IMG/VR virus record: IMGVR_UViG_3300009103_000121
Span: 1 to 29,425 of that record
Direction: 5' to 3' (one strand)
Source of the DNA: a virus
Length of the DNA: 29,425 nt
The position numbers were made by a program, and so were the translations under genes. The stretch's first letter is position 1; each line of letters opens with the position of its first letter. This document shows positions 4,132 through 29,425 of the stretch, in pieces. The notes beneath the pieces were generated by a model. The model was not told the DNA's origin. It saw only the letters and a program-made list of their open reading frames with translations, and did no database searches.

Positions 4132-4144
4132 GTGTATTATATAG
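4132..4144 (+). promoter_or_regulatory. Candidate late promoter (GTGTA motif) before phoH-like gene
   Basis: GTGTATTATATAG lies 15 nt before ATG 4147, inside the intergenic gap of two divergent genes. It is one of about nine similar sites next to late-gene starts. Confidence 0.5.
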
Positions 4145-4146
4145 CA

Positions 4147-4872
4147 ATGGCACAAAAAAAGGCTTCTCAACAACATGGAGAGAATTTGAAGGCGCTAGAC
4201 TTTAATGGTCTTACTTCTCATTTTCACGTACAATCTAAAAGGTTAACAGAAAAACAAAAGCAGTTTCTCGAAATAGCACTAGATTCCAAGACAAACATTA
4301 TTTTCTGCGCTGGGCCTGCTGGAACAACCAAGACCTACGTCGCGGTATATTCTGCTTTGCGATATTTGAGCGCAAATGTAGATCTCGACTTGCTCTATGT
4401 TCGAACTGTGGTAGAAAGCGGAGAAAGGAATCTCGGCTCTCTTCCTGGAGACATAGATGAAAAATTCAATCCTTACATGGCTCCTCTCGATGATAAATTA
4501 CGTGAGATGATTAAGCCGTCAATCATTCCTGAGTTGATATCTAAATCAAGAATTCAAGCAATGCCTATTAACTATTTAAGGGGAGCGAGCTGGAACAATA
4601 AGATTGTTGTGGCCGATGAAGCTCAAAATTTTACTTTTAAAGAATTAACTACTTTAGTGACTAGACTAGGGGAAAGTAGCAAACTTATCATTTGCGGGGA
4701 CTTCCTTCAATCAGATATTAATGGAAAGACAGGATTCAAAACCATGTTTGATTTATTTAATGATTCATCGAGTCAAAGGAGAGGGATTCATACTTTTGAG
4801 TTCACCAAGGAAGATATCAAGCGAAGTAAAATTCTTAAGTATATCATAGGTAAAATCGAAGGAGCAAGCTAG
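4147..4872 (+). CDS. phoH: PhoH-family ATPase
   Basis: ATP-binding P-loop protein of the PhoH family, common in phages; the cellular role is still unsettled (RNA metabolism or phosphate-linked functions have been proposed). Walker A is GPAGTTKT at residues 56-63, the family PINYLRGASW segment lies at 140-149, Walker B plus the following Gln is IVVADEAQN at 153-161, and CGDFLQSD lies near 183-190. The 241-aa length is normal for the family's catalytic domain. GTG 4132 is in frame but falls inside the promoter-like motif, so ATG 4147 is the start. First gene of the rightward late block, divergent from the minus operon. Confidence 0.9.
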   Translation: MAQKKASQQHGENLKALDFNGLTSHFHVQSKRLTEKQKQFLEIALDSKTNIIFCAGPAGTTKTYVAVYSALRYLSANVDLDLLYVRTVVESGERNLGSLPGDIDEKFNPYMAPLDDKLREMIKPSIIPELISKSRIQAMPINYLRGASWNNKIVVADEAQNFTFKELTTLVTRLGESSKLIICGDFLQSDINGKTGFKTMFDLFNDSSSQRRGIHTFEFTKEDIKRSKILKYIIGKIEGAS

Positions 4873-4877
4873 TCTTG

Positions 4878-4892
4878 GTGTATCTTAGAATA
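4878..4892 (+). promoter_or_regulatory. Candidate late promoter (GTGTA motif)
   Basis: GTGTATCTTAGAATA lies 17 nt before ATG 4895, in the only gap between phoH and the GAF-like gene. It is a weaker match than the sites at 4132 and 10850. Confidence 0.35.
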
Positions 4893-4894
4893 AG

Positions 4895-5470
4895 ATGGAT
4901 ATTATCATTGCCGCAACAATAGGAGCCGCTGCCACGATTGCAGCGGTCATTCTTAAAGCTTATCTAGGGTCTTTTTTAGAAAAAGGCAAACTTCAAAAAC
5001 ATACCATTCAAAACGAAGATGTTTATCGAGCGCTAGAATATTCGCGTAATAAAATTGAATGCGACAGGGTGGTAGTTTACGAGTTTCATAATGGAGATGT
5101 TTATTATTCAGGAAGTTCTCAGCAGAAATTTAGTAATACTTACGAAGTCTTATCTGAGGGAGTGAGCTCTGAACTCAAAAACCAACAAAACTTAAGGGTT
5201 TCTTCTTTTAATAGATTTATTAAACCTTTAGTGGATGAAGATGAATATGGGTTTTGGGACATAGACCAAGTGGAAGACATTGTAACAAAAACTTTTTTTG
5301 AAGATCAGGGCACAAAAAGTACATATTGTGTACCAATTCAGCTATTAACTGGAAAAATCATTGGCATACTAGGTATAGACTACGTTAAAGGAGGAAAGAA
5401 GCTAAGCGCCCAACAGAAGAATTTTATTAAAAATCAGTCATGTATTATTGCGGGCTATTTAAAAGCTTGA
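4895..5470 (+). CDS. Membrane-anchored GAF-like domain protein (191 aa)
   Basis: The N-terminus MDIIIAATIGAAATIAAVIL is a single hydrophobic membrane anchor (residues 1-24). The cytoplasmic rest has the strand order of a GAF-type sensor: RVVVYEFHNGD (about 57-68), then a ligand-pocket-like YYSGSSQQKFSNTYEVL, and the terminal pair YCVPIQL ... IIGILGIDYV (about 148-171). GAF domains bind small ligands or other proteins. In a phage, a membrane-bound copy could sense infection state or interfere with host signalling; both are inference. It lies between phoH and the zinc-ribbon gene on the same strand. Confidence 0.6.
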   Translation: MDIIIAATIGAAATIAAVILKAYLGSFLEKGKLQKHTIQNEDVYRALEYSRNKIECDRVVVYEFHNGDVYYSGSSQQKFSNTYEVLSEGVSSELKNQQNLRVSSFNRFIKPLVDEDEYGFWDIDQVEDIVTKTFFEDQGTKSTYCVPIQLLTGKIIGILGIDYVKGGKKLSAQQKNFIKNQSCIIAGYLKA

Positions 5471-6577: not shown

Positions 6578-7625
6578 TGAGCTAACCTCCCAACAAAAAT
6601 CTTTTATTGACGTAAATCACAAGTCAATTCCTGATTTAATTGAATTAACTCGTAGGGTTTTCAATGATGACTCCTTAGATGGCAGAACTAAAGAGGGTAA
6701 GCTTGTGAGAGAATATTTAGTGGAGTGTGGATTTAAATATAACACCACAAAAAAGAAAAAGGCTAAAAGAATCTTACTCGACGATGAAGAGAAGGAATTC
6801 ATTGAGCGCTCTGCACAAGACGGCATGAATGCTTATCAAATCGCATGCATCGTTTGGCCTGAGAGTCATATCACTCCCCTCAGCAAAGAGACCTTGGTGG
6901 TAGGAGAACATATTAAGAAACAAAAGCCCAGCTTATTGAGAATGGAAGACTCTGCTCTAGGAGACCAGTACCAACCACCTCAAACAGTATCAGCGACAGT
7001 TAAATTGATTAATGTTTATGCGCATGGAGATTTAAAGATTGATAAATTGGCGCTAAGACAAAGAAAGTGCGTAGAGTCAGTTTTGCAGTTCTTATCTTCT
7101 CCTCGCCTACTACAAGTAATCAATAACTATACAGACGTTACAGACAGAGAGTTATTTGAAGCAGAGTTCATTCGTACTACTTGGGATAAGCCAGATCTAA
7201 CAGCAGATGAAATAAATCTATATATCAATGTATGTATAGACTATGTTAATCTAAAGAACATTAGTAAAGCAATGGAAAAACTAAATAGAATGTTCCATGA
7301 AGCTGAAGATCAAAGAGATATGACAGTAAGACTTGCTGAGTTATTAAAAACTAAAAGCGACGAATACAATCAATGTGAAAAAAGAATGGAGTCGCTCATC
7401 AACCGTTTAAACGGTGATAGAGCGCGTAGAATACAAGGAAAACAAGAGGAGAATGCATCTATCCTATCTTTAGTACAATTATTCCAGGATGAGAACGAGA
7501 GACAAATTATGCTTAGAATGGCAGAAATGCAAAAAGAAGTGGTAGAAGAAGAGGCAAGAAATATTGAATCTATGCCAGCCTGGAAGGCTCGTGTGCTTGG
7601 CATTAGTAAAGGTGATGTGACGTGA
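6567..7625 (+). CDS. Hypothetical protein upstream of terminase (352 aa); possible DNA-binding role
   Basis: ATG 6567 overlaps the sigma stop by 11 nt. The first 120 residues are charged with a Lys-rich patch (TTKKKKAKRILL, about 60-71) and a possible helix-turn-helix (GMNAYQIACIVWPESHIT, about 86-103). The middle (130-250) is helical. The C-terminus (about 235-345) is a long charged helix rich in Glu/Arg (ERQIMLRMAEMQKEVVEEEA), probably a coiled coil. No small terminase is otherwise evident, and a DNA-binding oligomeric protein encoded a few genes before the large terminase could fill that role. This is inference from position and shape only. Confidence 0.55.
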   Translation: MTDNELTSQQKSFIDVNHKSIPDLIELTRRVFNDDSLDGRTKEGKLVREYLVECGFKYNTTKKKKAKRILLDDEEKEFIERSAQDGMNAYQIACIVWPESHITPLSKETLVVGEHIKKQKPSLLRMEDSALGDQYQPPQTVSATVKLINVYAHGDLKIDKLALRQRKCVESVLQFLSSPRLLQVINNYTDVTDRELFEAEFIRTTWDKPDLTADEINLYINVCIDYVNLKNISKAMEKLNRMFHEAEDQRDMTVRLAELLKTKSDEYNQCEKRMESLINRLNGDRARRIQGKQEENASILSLVQLFQDENERQIMLRMAEMQKEVVEEEARNIESMPAWKARVLGISKGDVT

Positions 7626-8581
7626 TTGATCCATTGGCTCCAAATCTTTATTGCAAAATCTGTAGTGAAAAATTCAATACAGAAAGATCATTGCATGCCC
7701 ATTTCAAAAAACACAAATTAACTCTCGCAGAATATTATTGTCAAGAGTATCCTCGCATTAATAAATTAACTGGTGATCCCCTTCCTTTTAAAAATAAGTT
7801 TGATTATTTTACTAAGGATTTTAGTACAAGGGATCAGATGAATAAGTGGATTGATAAATCTCCCGAAGACGAAGTCAAGGAATACATTATTAATCAGTTA
7901 CGTTTTCGCATTCAACATAAAAAATTGAGATATGCTCCCTTTCATCTCGAATTAGAAATGTTAAAATTGCCTTCTCTTGACATTTTCATCAAATACTTTA
8001 ATGCATATTCTAATGTATGTAATCAACTTGACATTGAGCCTTTATTTAAACGGGGCCTTAAATCTCCCCAGCAATTTTTTGAGAAAAACAAAAAATTTGA
8101 AGAGGTACCTATATTCATTGATACTCGAGAGCAAAAGCCCTTAAGCTTTACAAATTCTCAATCCATGAAATTAGATTTCGGAGATTATACTACGGGAGGA
8201 GAAAATTATACATATACCTACGTTGACCGCAAGAGTGAGTCAGACTTCAAGGGAACCCTAAGCCAAGGCTTAAGCCGCTTTAAAAAGGAACTAGATCGCG
8301 CAAGAGAGTTTAATAGCTTCTTGTATATAGTAATAGAGAGCGACATTCGAAAGATACAAAAAAATAATCTATTCGGGCCACATAGGTCAAACCTGGAATA
8401 TATCTTTCATAACCTAAGGTCGTTAACCCATGAATATCATGATGTGTGTCAGTTTATGTTTACTGGGAGCAGGGAACATTCTGAAACGTTAATTCCTAAA
8501 TTACTTATTGGAGGAAAGAGTTTATGGAATATAGATTTTCAATATTATATAGATAGATATGGAACTTGTGGTCAGAATTAA
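7622..8581 (+). CDS. C2H2 zinc-finger + ERCC4/XPF-type nuclease (319 aa)
   Basis: A classical C2H2 finger lies at residues 11-31 (C11-x2-C14-x12-H27-x3-H31, CKICSEKFNTERSLHAHFKK). A helical linker leads to an ERCC4 nuclease domain at about 162-290, with IFIDTREQKPL (D167, R169, E170), LDFGDYT (D188) and YVDRKSESDF (D202-R203-K204-S205). These correspond to the family's D-x-RE / GD / ERKS metal-binding motifs, with Asp for the first Glu. Such enzymes cut branched or structured DNA. Between the sigma factor and terminase it may trim or resolve replicative DNA before packaging. Start is GTG 7622, overlapping the previous TGA (GTGA). Confidence 0.8.
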   Translation: MIDPLAPNLYCKICSEKFNTERSLHAHFKKHKLTLAEYYCQEYPRINKLTGDPLPFKNKFDYFTKDFSTRDQMNKWIDKSPEDEVKEYIINQLRFRIQHKKLRYAPFHLELEMLKLPSLDIFIKYFNAYSNVCNQLDIEPLFKRGLKSPQQFFEKNKKFEEVPIFIDTREQKPLSFTNSQSMKLDFGDYTTGGENYTYTYVDRKSESDFKGTLSQGLSRFKKELDRAREFNSFLYIVIESDIRKIQKNNLFGPHRSNLEYIFHNLRSLTHEYHDVCQFMFTGSREHSETLIPKLLIGGKSLWNIDFQYYIDRYGTCGQN

Positions 8582-19378: not shown

Positions 19379-19414
19379 TAAAATGGCAGAAAGAAATAGA
19401 GTTTTATATCAATC
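19379..19414 (+). repeat. 36-nt exact repeat at start of tube gene 1
   Basis: From the four bases before ATG 19383 through codon 10 the sequence is identical to 20626-20661. It marks the tandem duplication of the two tube genes and keeps the initiation region the same in both. Confidence 0.9.
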
Positions 19415-20612
19415 TGAAGCATTGTGGGTCGGCCCAATAGCGGGTGGCGCACAGGGAGTACACCCCGAGTTGCACAGAATACAAGATATCAGTCACGATA
19501 TGGATATCACCCGTACTGATGTTTTTGAGTTTGGTAGATTGGCCGCGTTGACTCGCGAGATCATCGAACCACCTACAGTTAGCCTGGATTTTACTTATCT
19601 CCTGGCAGATGGCTCCAACGAAGCAAATATGGGCCTTGAAGTTTGTGATGGAGACGCCGCTGGCGGATCCACCCATTGGATCAACGGAAGTTTTCCTATG
19701 GCCGCAAGTGGAATCATCGCTGACACAGATAAGCAGGAAAAGAATTACTATGTAGTTACCGCTCCAGAATTTAAAGACCTCAATGATGACAAGGACGTCA
19801 GCGTAGCAGACGACACTCGTTCGGTTGTTGGATTCGGTAACGCTGCAATCTCAAATTACTCAGTTAATGCTGCGGTTGGGGATTTTGCACGCGCTAGCAT
19901 AAGCGCCGAAGCTTACAACTTAAACTTCCAATCGGGACTAGCGTCGTCCGCTGGTTATCTGCGCGGTGAAGTTCCTAGTATTAATAAGGAAACCAATAAG
20001 GCATATGATGGGCATTTTAACCTGTCGGAGCCAACTACTGGTGACCTTTCTGTGTTTGCTCTGCGCCCAGGCGATATTAGCCTGAAGTTCGGTGCAACCG
20101 ACGGAAGCAGAGATCAAACGTTACAGGTTGGTGGGGCTGTATTGCCGAATACCGATCCTGATGACACAACCGAGGACCTAAGTGATGGCTTGACTCCCAT
20201 GCATATTCAAAGCTTTAGCATTGAGATGCCTGTTACTCGTACGCCGCTTAATCGCTTGGGCTCAACCTTCCCTTACTACAGGGCTGTTGATTTCCCTCTG
20301 GATGTCACATTAAATGTTAGCGCATTTCTTGCTGATGTTAGTACTGGTAATTTAGTGGACCTTATGTGTAACGCTCAGGACAAGCGCCAAATTGATATTA
20401 TTTTGGACTTCCCTTGTAGTCATTCTCTTAATGACAGCTATGGTGCTAACATGGCCTATCGTTTAAAAGGGGCAGTATTGCAGAGCCAAAACTTTGCATC
20501 AACCATCGGAGATAACAAGACTGTTGACTTGACATTTACCGCTCAAATGGGAGGATCTACAGATACCTCTAACGGGCTGTTCATCTCGGGCTATCAGAAT
20601 GACGTTTCTTAA
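19383..20612 (+). CDS. Tail tube protein, paralogue 1 (409 aa, two tube domains)
   Basis: Predicted main building block of the tail tube. It has two similar halves: residues 31-80 start HRIQDISHDMDITRTDVFEF and residues 274-325 start HIQSFSIEMPVTRTPLNRLG. Each half has Ile-Gln, Ser, an acidic-Met pair, Thr-Arg-Thr and Gly, then a strand pair ending LLADGS or FLADVS. Such double-domain proteins (as in siphophage T5) can form trimers that mimic the usual hexameric ring. It is closely related to the following gene and more distantly to the two after that. Gene order (after neck, before chaperones and tape measure) agrees. Confidence 0.75.
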   Translation: MAERNRVLYQSEALWVGPIAGGAQGVHPELHRIQDISHDMDITRTDVFEFGRLAALTREIIEPPTVSLDFTYLLADGSNEANMGLEVCDGDAAGGSTHWINGSFPMAASGIIADTDKQEKNYYVVTAPEFKDLNDDKDVSVADDTRSVVGFGNAAISNYSVNAAVGDFARASISAEAYNLNFQSGLASSAGYLRGEVPSINKETNKAYDGHFNLSEPTTGDLSVFALRPGDISLKFGATDGSRDQTLQVGGAVLPNTDPDDTTEDLSDGLTPMHIQSFSIEMPVTRTPLNRLGSTFPYYRAVDFPLDVTLNVSAFLADVSTGNLVDLMCNAQDKRQIDIILDFPCSHSLNDSYGANMAYRLKGAVLQSQNFASTIGDNKTVDLTFTAQMGGSTDTSNGLFISGYQNDVS

Positions 20613-20625
20613 TATAGGAAGAAAA

Positions 20626-20661
20626 TAAAATGGCAGAAAGAAATAGAGTTTTATATCAATC
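20626..20661 (+). repeat. 36-nt exact repeat at start of tube gene 2
   Basis: Identical to 19379-19414. Here an AGGAAG Shine-Dalgarno 9 nt before the ATG precedes the repeat, whereas copy 1 lacks one, so the two genes may be translated at different rates. Confidence 0.9.
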
Positions 20662-21889
20662 GGAGTATGTGTACGTTGGTGGCCCAACGGGCTGGGGAGG
20701 CGGAACAGCCAACCAGATCCAACCTCTTCATAGAATCCAGGAGTTTAGTCATGGAATGGAAATCAATCGAACTGATGTTTTTGAGTTTGGTAGATTAGCA
20801 GCCCTGACTCGGGAGATCATCGATCCCCCTACAGTAACCGCCGACATGACATATTTGTTGGCTGACGGCTGGAATGAATCAGGAATTGGTTTTACCGTCT
20901 GCGGAGCAGGCGGCGTGGGCGACCAAAACGGCCGTTCATGGATGGCGGGAGATTTTCCTCCAGCTATATCAGGAATCCTTCAGGATGACGACGGAAATGA
21001 TGTTAGTGAAAAGAATTATTACTTGCTAACTTCCCCCGAATTCACAGACGCAGATGATGATGCGGGTGCAGCTGTAGCGGATATGACCCGTTCAGTTGTA
21101 GGCATCGGCAACGCCGCTGTTACGAATTATACAGTTAACGCTGCAGTGGGAGATTTTGCAAGTGCAAGCGTTTCGCTGGAAGCGTATAACGTTAACTTCA
21201 CATCGGGTCGTGCCGTAGGTGCCGCTGGTTACGTGGTTGAGGGAGAATCTCCTGATGTCAACAAGACTACGGCAGCTGCTGGAGGAAATCAGTATATACT
21301 TCCTGATCCTTCTACTGGTAATCTGAGCGTATTTGCTCTGCGTCCTGGGGACATCGAGATGGTTTTTGTATCAGGTTCGGATGGACTCCCTGTAGACTTG
21401 CAGGTTGGGGGCGCTGTATTGCCCACGCTGGATCCAGATTCGGCTACAGAACCCGCTCCAGATACCCCAATGCATATTCAAAGCTTTAGTATCGAAGCTC
21501 CTTTAGCTCGTACTCCTTTGAATAGAATTGGAAGTGTTTACCCTTACCACAGAGCGGTAGACTTCCCTCAAGACATTACCGTAAATGTTAGTGCATTCTT
21601 GGCGGACGTAACCACTGGTAATCTGGTAGATCTAATGTGTAACTCGAGCCAAACTCGAACAATTGATGTTCGTTGTAGGTTCCCGTGTGATTCTCATGAC
21701 AGAGGAGACATTCAGCAAGCAGGAAGCAGATACGACTTAATCTATCGTCTCAAAAATTGTCGCCTGCAAAGTCAAAACTTCGCGTCCACCATTGGTGACA
21801 ATAAATCCGTTGATTTGTCGTTTGTCGCTCAGTATGGCGGAGTCAGTGATACTGACAACGGTCTGTTTATCTCTGGTGTGATTGATTAA
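20630..21889 (+). CDS. Tail tube protein, paralogue 2 (419 aa, two tube domains)
   Basis: Close relative of the previous gene: same first twelve residues (MAERNRVLYQSE), the same VFEFGRLAALTREII core (about 50-64) and the same C-terminal FASTIGDNKSVDLSF-type segment. Internal repeat: residues 34-83 (HRIQEFSHGMEINRTDVFEF) and 282-333 (HIQSFSIEAPLARTPLNRIG). It differs mainly in insertions in surface loops (GGPTGWGGGTANQ near residues 17-29). Possibly both copies build one mixed tube, or one is a minor variant. A better ribosome-binding site and the terminator just downstream suggest strong expression. Confidence 0.75.
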   Translation: MAERNRVLYQSEYVYVGGPTGWGGGTANQIQPLHRIQEFSHGMEINRTDVFEFGRLAALTREIIDPPTVTADMTYLLADGWNESGIGFTVCGAGGVGDQNGRSWMAGDFPPAISGILQDDDGNDVSEKNYYLLTSPEFTDADDDAGAAVADMTRSVVGIGNAAVTNYTVNAAVGDFASASVSLEAYNVNFTSGRAVGAAGYVVEGESPDVNKTTAAAGGNQYILPDPSTGNLSVFALRPGDIEMVFVSGSDGLPVDLQVGGAVLPTLDPDSATEPAPDTPMHIQSFSIEAPLARTPLNRIGSVYPYHRAVDFPQDITVNVSAFLADVTTGNLVDLMCNSSQTRTIDVRCRFPCDSHDRGDIQQAGSRYDLIYRLKNCRLQSQNFASTIGDNKSVDLSFVAQYGGVSDTDNGLFISGVID

Positions 21890-25971: not shown

Positions 25972-28900
25972 ATGGCGGATATTTCAGTAAGAGTAAAAGC
26001 TGTAGGATTACAGCAAAGCATTACGCAGCAGGCTCAAGCAGCGCAGCGTACGGTAAGCCGTTTGAATTTAACCCCACGAATGGACGCCAAGGGACTGCAA
26101 CAACCCTTGGGAAGAATCACGGGAAACCTTAGTGAGTTTAATAAATCTCTTGACGCTTCTACCGCTCGTGTATTTGCCTTTGGAGCTACAGTATCAGTTA
26201 TTAATGGTATTGCTGATGCATTTAAGGGAGTTGTTTCTGCCGTAATAGAAGTAGAGCGAGCTCTAGAAAATATTAATGTAGTCATGGGGTTGACCACTGC
26301 TCAACTAGCCGATTACTCCGATGCTCTTTTTGATGTTGCGAAAAATACCAGTCAAACCTTTCAAACTGTAGCTACAGCCGCCACGGAATTTGCGAGGCAG
26401 GGCTTAAGCGCTGAAGAAACACTACAAAGAGTTAATGACGCCCTTATACTTACTCGTTTATCGGGATTGGGTGCAGAGCAGTCGGTTGCTTCGCTCACGG
26501 CGGTAGTTAATGGCTTTGCTCGGGAGAGCCTCAATACAACAGAAATCGTTAATAGACTAGCTAATGTTGACGCGAGTTTTGCGGTTAGCTCTAAAGATTT
26601 GGCAGACGCCTTGGCTCGAGCGGGAGCGACCGCACAGTCTGCGGGCGTAAACTTTAATGAACTTTTGGCCGTTGTAACATCAGTGCAGCAGCAGACCGCT
26701 CGTGGCGGGTCTGTTATTGGCAATGCTTTTAAAAGTATATTTACTCGTATACAGAGAGCAAAAGTACGAGAAACACTAGAGGGTGTTGGCGTTGCTACTA
26801 CAGATGCTTTCGGAAACTTTAGATCAGCAATTGCCATCTTGAAGGATTACGCTTCTGTTTATGGCACGCTTTCAGACGCGCAAAAAGCCTATACCGCTGA
26901 ACAAATCGCAGGAGTCTTCCAGGTTAATAATTTAAAAGCTTTAATTAATGATTTGAGTGGTGATTTTTCTATTTACGAACAAGCTTTAGGCACCGCAGCT
27001 GCCACCACCGACGAAGCCACTCGCAGAAACGAGCAATTAAATCAAACTTTTGCGGCATTGGGCGCCCAAGCTGGAGAGAGCATTCGGCAGTTGGCGGATT
27101 CTTTTGGAGAACTTACGCTTGAGCCCGCCATGGAAAGAGTACTCGGCATGGTTCAGACAATCGTGGACGCCTTGAGCGGAATGCTGGGAGAGAAAGATGG
27201 AGATAATTTAATGGGCAAATTCTTTAAGGGAATGGGAGCTTTTATTTCTGGCCCTGGCCTCGCTTTGATTTCTGCTGCATTTCTTAAATTGTTTATGTTA
27301 GTGGGAAAGCATGCGACTGCCGCTATCAGGGAGATGTTTAAAATTTCCTCCGAAGCCCAGCGACAAAAAGGGCTACAAGAAGCGATCTTACAGATACTAA
27401 TTAAAGATGAGCAGGCTTATACAAAAATCTTAGCCGCCAGCGGTAACCAAAATAAACAAGCAAAAATTTTAGTAGGCATAATAAAGCAGGCCAATGCGGA
27501 ATACGCAAAACAACAAGCTCTTCTTTCTAATTTGTCTAAATCAGGAGCCATGAAGGGGTTTGGCGTCGGGAAGAGTGGATACATACAGCCTATAAGCCGC
27601 AAGGCAGAAGGGCATACGCCGACTATGGCTGGAGGAGGCATGCCCGAAGTACAGGCTGCAGAAGATGCAGGTTATGCCTCTCCCGTAAAGCCACAACAGG
27701 TTAGGCAGATGAATGTCCCCAATTTGGGTAAGGTAATGTACAACACTCAGGAGAAAATCGTTAATGTTCCTAATTTGGCGCAACCATTTATTGTCCCACC
27801 TGCTTCTTCTAAGGCGTACCCTAATTATGCAAGCCAAGTTAAGGAGCAGTTTGGAGAGCCAATGGCCAAGAATGTTTTAGGTAGAGCGTTTACTCCAAAA
27901 CAAAGAGCTTTTGCTGAGGGGTTTAGCCCCATTAAAAAGGGTTCGTTAATGCTTGAAAAAGAATACGCAAGCAATGCTTCGGGTTTGGTTCCTAATTTCA
28001 TAGTTAAGCCCGCGCAGTTACAGCAGGAACTTATTAAACAAGGTTCATTAAGAAAAGGGGATATCCTGGATAATAAAAAAACTTATGAATATAAGTTTTC
28101 AGATGGAACTAGCGTACTCGGAAAGCCTGGAGAGCTTAGGGGTGCAGTTACCATGAATAATGGTAAGCTTGTTAAAAATGAAAACTCTTTATTTTTTAAA
28201 GATCGCTCAATAAATCCCGCTTCTAGGAAGAGTCTAGATCAAAGCTCTCGGGTTTCGATGCTGTTACCTGAAGCTACAGCAGGAGATGCAGCGACTCGTG
28301 TGGCGACACAAATTTCAGGGGGCACCTTAACCGAAACCCTAGGTAAACCAGGCGCACTGACAGAGATAGTGGGGCCTGGCACAATAAAAAAATTAGGAGG
28401 AGAGCAGTCTGCAAAAACCAAATTACAAACCGCATTCTCCAATGATGTTTTCGATGTTAAGTTTTCTAAGTCAGGAGTGCAAGATTTAGAAAACCAAACT
28501 TCACTGCGAGAAAAAATAGATAGCGATTTATCTTCAAAGGTCACGCAGGTTTTGACTGGAAACGCCAAACAACTTATTAGCAAGTCAAATTTAAAAAATG
28601 TACCAATTAATCAGGCAGAAGTCAAGGGCCAAGCCGAAAAATTAGTAGGCGCGAATTCTAAGATGACTGGCACAATGTTTGAGGATATTGTTACTATTGC
28701 CGTAGGCAAATCAAATGAATTCTCTAGTCAAGATCATTATAGAAATTGGGACTTCCAAGGAGTTGGTGCTTTAAACAATTTATTCGATAAGCGAGTTAAT
28801 GAGTTTGCTGATACAAAACGTTCTGATCTTCCTCACGCCCGCGCTTCAATGGCAAAAAAAATATTATTTGGCACTCCATTAGGAAAGCAAACCCTGAAAA

Positions 28901-29425
28901 GCGCAGCCCAACAGGCGCTCCCAACGCAGCGGGCAGCTAAGGCTAAGACTAGGGCGTCGGGCTTGGTTCCTAATTTAGGCCGACTAGATGGTCAGCAAGA
29001 GTTCTTTCGTAATGCAGGAAAAAAGATGGGAGGACGGAACCCTAGAGCTAAGATTTTTGATGTAGATGATACATTAATGGATACTTCTGTAGCTATGAAA
29101 AAGATGGGTATTAAGCCTGGAGATCAGAGAATCTATGGAGACAAAAATGTTTCACGAGACATCGCTAGACAGGCAAAGCCTACGCTTTTGGGAGAAAAAG
29201 TAAAAGCTCTAAAAAATAAAGATAATGTTTTTCTCTTAACTGACGCTGGTCCTGCGCGCAATCAAGTTCTTTCGGAAAAATTTGATATACCCCTAAAGAA
29301 AATAATTGCTTTACGGGATCCCGCGCAAATCTCAAAGTTTGGTTTGGATTCGGTAGTCCCCTCTGCCCAAGGTCTTCGTAGGCAGAAAAAAGACCCTTCT
29401 TATAAACTAGAAAAAGGTTCGCGGG
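25972..29425 (+). CDS. Tail tape-measure protein with embedded enzyme-like domains (3' end outside window)
   Basis: The frame is open from ATG 25972 to the window end (1151 residues so far, no stop). Residues about 70-340 are a TP901-type tape-measure core (LANVDASFAVSSKDLADALA, FNELLAVVTSVQQQTARGGS). A Gly-rich hydrophobic segment lies at about 416-443 (FISGPGLALISAAFLKLFML), as expected for a tape measure that enters the host membrane. From about 580 on come four VPN(L/F) motifs (581-585, 598-602, 672-676, 998-1002). Between the third and fourth is a PD-(D/E)XK-like region (E904, D927, D947-x-K949), and after the fourth a HAD-like start (FDVDDTLMD, D1030/D1032; LLTDA, T1090). Core function is sure; the enzyme parts are inferred by motif. 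Confidence 0.9.
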   Translation, partial: MADISVRVKAVGLQQSITQQAQAAQRTVSRLNLTPRMDAKGLQQPLGRITGNLSEFNKSLDASTARVFAFGATVSVINGIADAFKGVVSAVIEVERALENINVVMGLTTAQLADYSDALFDVAKNTSQTFQTVATAATEFARQGLSAEETLQRVNDALILTRLSGLGAEQSVASLTAVVNGFARESLNTTEIVNRLANVDASFAVSSKDLADALARAGATAQSAGVNFNELLAVVTSVQQQTARGGSVIGNAFKSIFTRIQRAKVRETLEGVGVATTDAFGNFRSAIAILKDYASVYGTLSDAQKAYTAEQIAGVFQVNNLKALINDLSGDFSIYEQALGTAAATTDEATRRNEQLNQTFAALGAQAGESIRQLADSFGELTLEPAMERVLGMVQTIVDALSGMLGEKDGDNLMGKFFKGMGAFISGPGLALISAAFLKLFMLVGKHATAAIREMFKISSEAQRQKGLQEAILQILIKDEQAYTKILAASGNQNKQAKILVGIIKQANAEYAKQQALLSNLSKSGAMKGFGVGKSGYIQPISRKAEGHTPTMAGGGMPEVQAAEDAGYASPVKPQQVRQMNVPNLGKVMYNTQEKIVNVPNLAQPFIVPPASSKAYPNYASQVKEQFGEPMAKNVLGRAFTPKQRAFAEGFSPIKKGSLMLEKEYASNASGLVPNFIVKPAQLQQELIKQGSLRKGDILDNKKTYEYKFSDGTSVLGKPGELRGAVTMNNGKLVKNENSLFFKDRSINPASRKSLDQSSRVSMLLPEATAGDAATRVATQISGGTLTETLGKPGALTEIVGPGTIKKLGGEQSAKTKLQTAFSNDVFDVKFSKSGVQDLENQTSLREKIDSDLSSKVTQVLTGNAKQLISKSNLKNVPINQAEVKGQAEKLVGANSKMTGTMFEDIVTIAVGKSNEFSSQDHYRNWDFQGVGALNNLFDKRVNEFADTKRSDLPHARASMAKKILFGTPLGKQTLKSAAQQALPTQRAAKAKTRASGLVPNLGRLDGQQEFFRNAGKKMGGRNPRAKIFDVDDTLMDTSVAMKKMGIKPGDQRIYGDKNVSRDIARQAKPTLLGEKVKALKNKDNVFLLTDAGPARNQVLSEKFDIPLKKIIALRDPAQISKFGLDSVVPSAQGLRRQKKDPSYKLEKGSR
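28654..28866 (+). other. PD-(D/E)XK-like region within tape measure
   Basis: Residues about 895-965: GTMFEDIVTIAVG (E904), RNWDFQGVG (D927), EFADTKRSD (D947-T-K949), then a helix SMAKKILFG. A helix Glu, an Asp, and D-x-K about 20 residues later is the metal-site layout of the PD-(D/E)XK nuclease fold. Whether the domain is active cannot be judged from sequence alone. Confidence 0.45.
29035..29425 (+). other. HAD-phosphatase-like domain within tape measure (cut by window end)
   Basis: Residues from about 1022: motif I IFDVDDTLMDTS (D1030, D1032, T1034) and motif II VFLLTDAGPARNQVLSEKF (T1090). A later Lys-rich segment (LRRQKKDPSYKLEKG) is where motif III Lys would fall; motif IV would lie beyond the window. 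The pattern recalls DNA/RNA 3'-phosphatase and other small HAD enzymes; the substrate is unknown. Confidence 0.65.

Follow-up and report, generated by a model that had tools for sequence, protein, structure and literature searches.

The question raised by this locus is whether a phage tape-measure protein, normally a structural component of the tail, may also carry enzyme domains into the host cell. The window, that is, the whole stretch of 29,425 bases forming IMG/VR record IMGVR_UViG_3300009103_000121, ends inside a long open reading frame (ORF) whose last part had been described in an initial annotation as a haloacid dehalogenase (HAD)-phosphatase-like domain built into a tape measure. In a Pfam scan, the ORF starting at 25972 scores 98.3 bits against PF10145 (cut-off 33.2), the sole significant family in this incomplete protein, and it matches PHROG tape-measure families with a best E of 2.7e-52; judged from these profile matches, its product is a phage tape-measure protein. 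The layout of the ORF is as follows:

25972-29425, plus strand: tape-measure ORF, 1151 aa, open to the contig end (codons through 29424)
26338-26913, plus strand: PhageMin_Tail (PF10145) core, aa 123-314, E 7e-28
27982-27999, plus strand: separator GLVPNF, which opens cargo slot 1
28000-28959, plus strand: cargo 1, aa 677-996, 320 aa, PD-(D/E)XK-like nuclease domain by sequence, with 51 homologous segments found by profile
28960-28977, plus strand: separator GLVPNL, which closes slot 1 and opens slot 2
28978-29425, plus strand: cargo 2, aa 1003-1151 and beyond, HAD-like, with motifs I and II in frame, cut by the contig end

The long C-terminal part of the tape measure is missing from the window because the contig ends. 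Elsewhere on the contig, 19383-20612 and 20630-21889 are adjacent paralogous structural genes, both beginning MAERNRVLYQSE; their sequences suggest that a tail protein gene was duplicated in tandem, and the related locus L002 seemingly holds a single copy (4179-5285). A PhoH-like ATPase (PHROG 170, E 2.4e-63) lies at 4132-4872, and an ERCC4-type nuclease (PHROG 3490, E 1.4e-10), whose N-terminus includes a zinc-finger-like stretch, lies at 7622-8581, directly upstream of the terminase, which shares only some 25% identity with the terminases of Bacillus phages Slash and Staley.

The window tape measure belongs to a large environmental family. Core-based scans of viral contigs returned 80 loci at 36-45% identity, the range in which the N-terminal part of the window protein matches its relatives, and then 80 more, partly on the same contigs; in total, at least 574 tape-measure relatives were confirmed in IMG/VR viral contigs by tblastn, about 150 of which were read in detail. 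In these proteins the N-terminal part is constant, the central array variable and the C-terminal part long; nearly all of them contain multiple copies of the consensus xA[AS]xG[FY][IV]PNFA, in which G[FY][IV]PNFA splits the array into cargo segments. The 146 non-redundant tape measures hold a mean of 4.4 motifs each, with up to nine in one array. In 355,061 aa of related tape measures, 544 copies of the strict form G[FY][IV]PNF were counted, and this form is absent from 432,313 aa of other ORFs (at least 100 aa, same strand, same loci), so the VPN(F/L) landmark on which the initial annotation had relied is a real separator across the family. The nearest tape measures of cultured phages match in the N-terminal part only, and G[FY][IV]PNF was not found in those of phages 949 and Stills. 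Many arrays close with IRV..NPxGLGVYNTxDEPxGL, a conserved stretch some 70 aa long (for example, L002:10398-10643), which had no match in cultured phage records and resembles the module preceding the first cargo; together they may frame the array. Host labels were available for five binned loci, four of them Flavobacteriales/Flavobacteriaceae and one Verrucomicrobiales, binned viral contigs being weak evidence for the host.

The distribution of the separator, present at every cargo boundary and nowhere else, would also be expected of a polyprotein, in which G[FY][IV]PNFA is a processing site, a phage or host protease frees the cargo at assembly or entry as separate proteins of the virion or on the host side, and only the N- and C-terminal parts make up the tape measure proper. 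For polyvalent proteins, separation by peptidases within the polypeptide itself has been suggested (PMC5512222), and cargo with an HExxH motif is present in some arrays; by eye, this peptidase-like motif is seen in the cargo of L098 (aa 1225-1417) and L100, and such segments might release cargo. Against this, no protease that reads the motif was identified, the window contains no peptidase cargo, and a short hydrophobic motif might just as well serve for docking or chaperone binding, so that processing into separate products is considered unlikely here. Delivery of the enzymes as parts of the tape measure itself is the reading followed below, with the cargo of the window taken in order.

The first slot of the window is occupied by a domain that the initial annotation had not recorded. 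A profile built from cargo 1 and two relatives finds 51 homologous cargo segments, a type that is common in the first slot, and an alignment of 16 diverse members places the putative catalytic residues at:

28681, plus strand: E904, invariant
28750, plus strand: D927, invariant
28810, plus strand: D947, at least 90% conserved
28816, plus strand: K949, invariant

By this pattern of conservation, cargo 1 is a PD-(D/E)XK-like nuclease domain; it has the E ... D ... D-x-K signature of the PD-(D/E)XK nucleases, but profile and sequence searches gave no match to it in Pfam, PADLOC or the PDB. The HAD-like stretch, which had been presented as an isolated domain, is indeed there, but as one slot of a polymorphic array with a nuclease slot before it, both of which had been missed.

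In the second slot, the features that point to a HAD are the following:

29053-29076, plus strand: HAD motif I, IFDVDDTL (D1030, D1032), aa 1028-1035, its chance frequency estimated by shuffling
29227-29241, plus strand: HAD motif II-like strand VFLLT (T1090), aa 1086-1090, from the ORF translation and profile alignment
29404-29406, plus strand: tentative candidate for the motif III lysine, K1145 in SYK, from a MAFFT alignment with other phage HADs

IFDVDDTL shows the hydrophobic strand followed by DxDx[TV] that characterises motif I, and VFLLT is compatible with the hydrophobic strand closed by Ser or Thr of motif II. The first aspartate of motif I and the threonine of VFLLT are 60 residues apart, which fits HAD spacing, and the position of motif IV lies past the end of the record, where the window cargo has already stopped. 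Several results could be taken to mean that cargo 2 is no HAD at all and that IFDVDDTL arose by chance or is a relic. No significant match to the stretch was obtained in Pfam, NCBIfam, PHROG, PADLOC or PDB sequences, so that the profile search proposed at the outset yielded nothing from curated libraries; comparison of a profile of L096-type HADs with the window segment by hhalign gave no match, and no close relative of the window HAD was found in viral contigs, phage records or 170 tape measures. The AlphaFold (AF2) model of the segment, built from three sequences, has a pLDDT of 44 and was left out of the fold search, and MAFFT misplaces motif II when the segment is aligned with the L096-type family, for which reason identities in that alignment were not used. 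A phage HAD profile made from ten other HADs, several of them collected by their motif I pattern, matches cargo 2 with an E of 8e-5 in an alignment that spans motif I to motif II and is the best among untrained cargo, the window segment itself not being in the training set; once motif I is cut out of the profile, the segment is no longer recovered. On the other side, a motif I of this form arose in 10 of 100,000 shuffles of the C-terminal segment, and it occurs once in 655,278 aa of neighbouring ORFs other than tape measures. In the relatives' tape measures, 13 copies were counted (0.45 expected from shuffles), all of them within HAD-like cargo, and the HADs of the relatives sit in the same kind of slot. 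With these data, a chance or relic match appears rather unlikely, and cargo 2 is probably a HAD by its sequence motifs; the lack of a library match, the pLDDT of 44 and the location of motif IV past the record leave the assignment for the window probable and unproven.

Two further groups of phage sequences share this type of motif. The DNA pattern FD[VI]DDTL.DT led to three contigs of other phages that encode closely similar HADs, which are not in tape measures and were set aside. In addition, L199 and L200 are giant ORFs of other phages (1688 and 3001 aa) that lack G[FY][IV]PNFA and carry HADs with VFDFDDTLA..NVFVLTARP; after motif I, these are among the HADs most similar to that of the window (7 and 20 of 1000 shuffles, respectively, were as good), and the ORFs may represent another injected multi-domain protein.

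The relatives provide HAD cargo with a more complete set of motifs. Fourteen segments contain a YDWDGT motif I, a T.RP motif II, the lysine and a DD or DN motif IV, and fall into two length classes, 125 and 143-144 aa. A further HAD with motifs I to IV, in the same kind of slot, was recovered in L189 by a DNA pattern requiring the PNF separator and motif I alone; the other matches of such separator-plus-motif-I patterns were unrelated genes or chance. L023 holds a partial HAD cargo (E 0.044 to the HAD profile), and in L088, L093 and L189 the second aspartate of motif IV is replaced by asparagine. The AlphaFold model of the L096 HAD has a core pLDDT of about 90 and a weak C-terminal third. Foldseek with this model gave no match below E 0.05, and VIA-align placed it closest to HADs, which make up all the leading ranks, including the phage phosphatase AfhF (Z 7.4), 1xpj (Z 6.9) and the T4 Pnkp 3'-phosphatase (Z 6.6), values of 6-7 being middling for a common fold. 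Taken together, the four motifs and the Z values make a convincing case, from sequence and modelled structure, that the L096/L077-type cargo of the relatives is a HAD. Neither the T4 Pnkp 3'-phosphatase nor AfhF is known to form part of a tail protein. Like the L096 cargo, both (PDB 5uj0 and 9iqw, respectively) have a small HAD core with little cap. In the comparison with HAD 3'-phosphatases that had been suggested, the modelled fold of a relative lies near that of T4 Pnkp, and L096-type cargo has no match to T4 Pnkp or AfhF at the sequence level. The idea of a HAD within a tape measure is supported by the relatives' cargo with motifs I to IV and by one HAD-fold model, the window's own model being poor.

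HADs are only part of what these arrays contain, since different domains occupy the same places in hundreds of related environmental viruses. The 517 cargo segments were grouped by BLAST into 80 clusters, of which the largest is a single-linkage mixture and not to be taken as one family. Pfam matches among the cargo include SNase (E 1.8e-9), PcfJ (E 2.9e-7) and a P-loop domain (E 4.3e-4); among 57 representatives searched against Pfam, several segments match no enzyme family, and no peptidoglycan or wall hydrolase was detected. By eye, kinase-like, acetyltransferase-like and HExxH segments can be discerned, including small cargo resembling protein kinases or RIO kinases in L039 (aa 1088-1261), L176 (aa 1173-1400) and L041 (aa 1186-1379). 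The P-loop cargo resembles a kinase and is present in 7 of 16 tape measures with a HAD versus 5 of 129 without one (Fisher p 3e-5, overstated because the sequences are related).

The segments without an enzyme family, together with the altered motif IV of a few HAD copies, might suggest that the inserts are former enzyme domains, now inactive and kept for length, flexibility or packing of the tube. This is not what is seen in the catalytic residues, which are conserved across diverged HAD and nuclease copies, nor in the lengths of the proteins: arrays span 90 to 2199 aa, with no corresponding shift in the C-terminal part. The coefficient of variation in length is 0.09 for the N-terminal part, 0.55 for the array and 0.22 for the C-terminal part, and total length tracks the array (r 0.80), whereas array and C-terminal part are barely correlated (r 0.14). 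Array lengths that vary independently of the C-terminal part are difficult to square with a function as a ruler, and a purely structural filler is regarded as improbable.

With respect to the integrity of the gene, the codon-usage log-likelihood per codon over 28954-29424 is +0.18 in the tape-measure frame versus -0.38 and -0.44 in the alternative frames, and the GC content by codon position agrees with the rest of the ORF. Both indicate that the HAD-like stretch is coding in the tape-measure frame and no accident, and the earlier observation that this frame runs without a stop into HAD motifs I and II holds, with codon usage native to the gene. A frameshift or chimeric assembly that fused the end of the tape-measure gene to another gene is hardly credible, even though the stretch sits at the edge of its contig, a place more prone to misassembly, given the native frame and codons, the family separator at 28960 just before the stretch and the recurrence of this architecture in independent contigs from numerous samples.

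Tape measures occupy the tail tube until infection, when they leave it, and several carry cell-wall hydrolases (PMC6116005); that of lambda contacts inner-membrane proteins during injection (PMC13190303). The occurrence of different domains in the same slots of relatives suggests enzymes that enter the host with the viral DNA, and our main reading, to which we assign a probability of roughly 0.6, is that the tape measure carries enzymes that pass down the tail and are delivered together with the DNA. The protein would act as a carrier, with the usual core in its N-terminal part and an array of small globular enzyme domains in the middle. The cargo would be packed unfolded or partly folded inside the tail tube, exit ahead of the DNA as part of the tape measure, and fold once inside the host to act before any viral gene expression, most likely in early counter-defence or take-over. 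The separator may keep the cargo inside the tube, recruit a chaperone or serve as a cleavage mark. As for the HAD cargo, the fold neighbours of the relative's model, which include the T4 Pnkp 3'-phosphatase, and the association between HAD and P-loop cargo favour polynucleotide ends or nucleotides as targets; the removal of phosphates from them is nevertheless a doubtful assignment, put forward as a speculation.

Several components of this reading are already known, namely enzymes in tape measures, injected polyvalent proteins (PMC5512222) and tape-measure-related effectors (PMC13277306). In phages T5, TM4 and phiIPLA35, tape measures have peptidoglycan hydrolase domains (PMC6116005), and these resemble the present case in having an enzyme domain inside the tape measure, with use at entry as proposed here; their domains act on the cell wall, however, whereas here the cargo is nuclease-, phosphatase- and P-loop-like and is distributed over multiple slots with a shared separator. 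Polyvalent proteins likewise combine many unrelated effector domains in one polypeptide and are thought to enter with the DNA, and the text describing them makes no mention of tape measures, haloacid dehalogenases or phosphatases (PMC5512222). With regard to the features that define them, the window protein has several domains per polypeptide, and a peptidase-like HExxH is found in some relatives and not in the window; unlike in polyvalent proteins, a tape measure serves here as the carrier and G[FY][IV]PNFA delimits the domains. Sle1 and Tme of contractile injection systems (PMC13277306) share the tape-measure-like scaffold, an exchangeable domain and, by the reading adopted here, delivery through a tail-like tube, but they belong to bacterial particles and vary in their C-terminal domain, while the arrays reported here are internal and found in phages. 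A literature search that covered few subscription journals and preprints returned no description of phage tape measures in which non-wall enzymes form a variable array bounded by a motif, and a search with the motif string returned no relevant paper.

In a wider and more tentative interpretation, which we hold to be possible rather than probable, these viruses would represent a widespread, previously undescribed class of phages that use the tape measure as a modular injector, in which G[FY][IV]PNFA-bounded cassettes would turn over by gain, loss and exchange, as toxin domains do in polymorphic toxins, and be delivered before the genome against defences, and with a kinase and phosphatase pair in some lineages that would heal nucleic acid ends. 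How phage DNA is protected in the first moments, before the phage makes its own proteins, is poorly understood, and an enzyme-bearing tape measure would place enzymes in time at the entry site, the point of attack of defences like SNIPE (PMC13190303). By means of the separator motif, hundreds of these arrays can be located with ease, each slot being a candidate anti-defence enzyme, and the array shows how far a tape measure can grow without change elsewhere in the protein, which bears on how tail length is measured.
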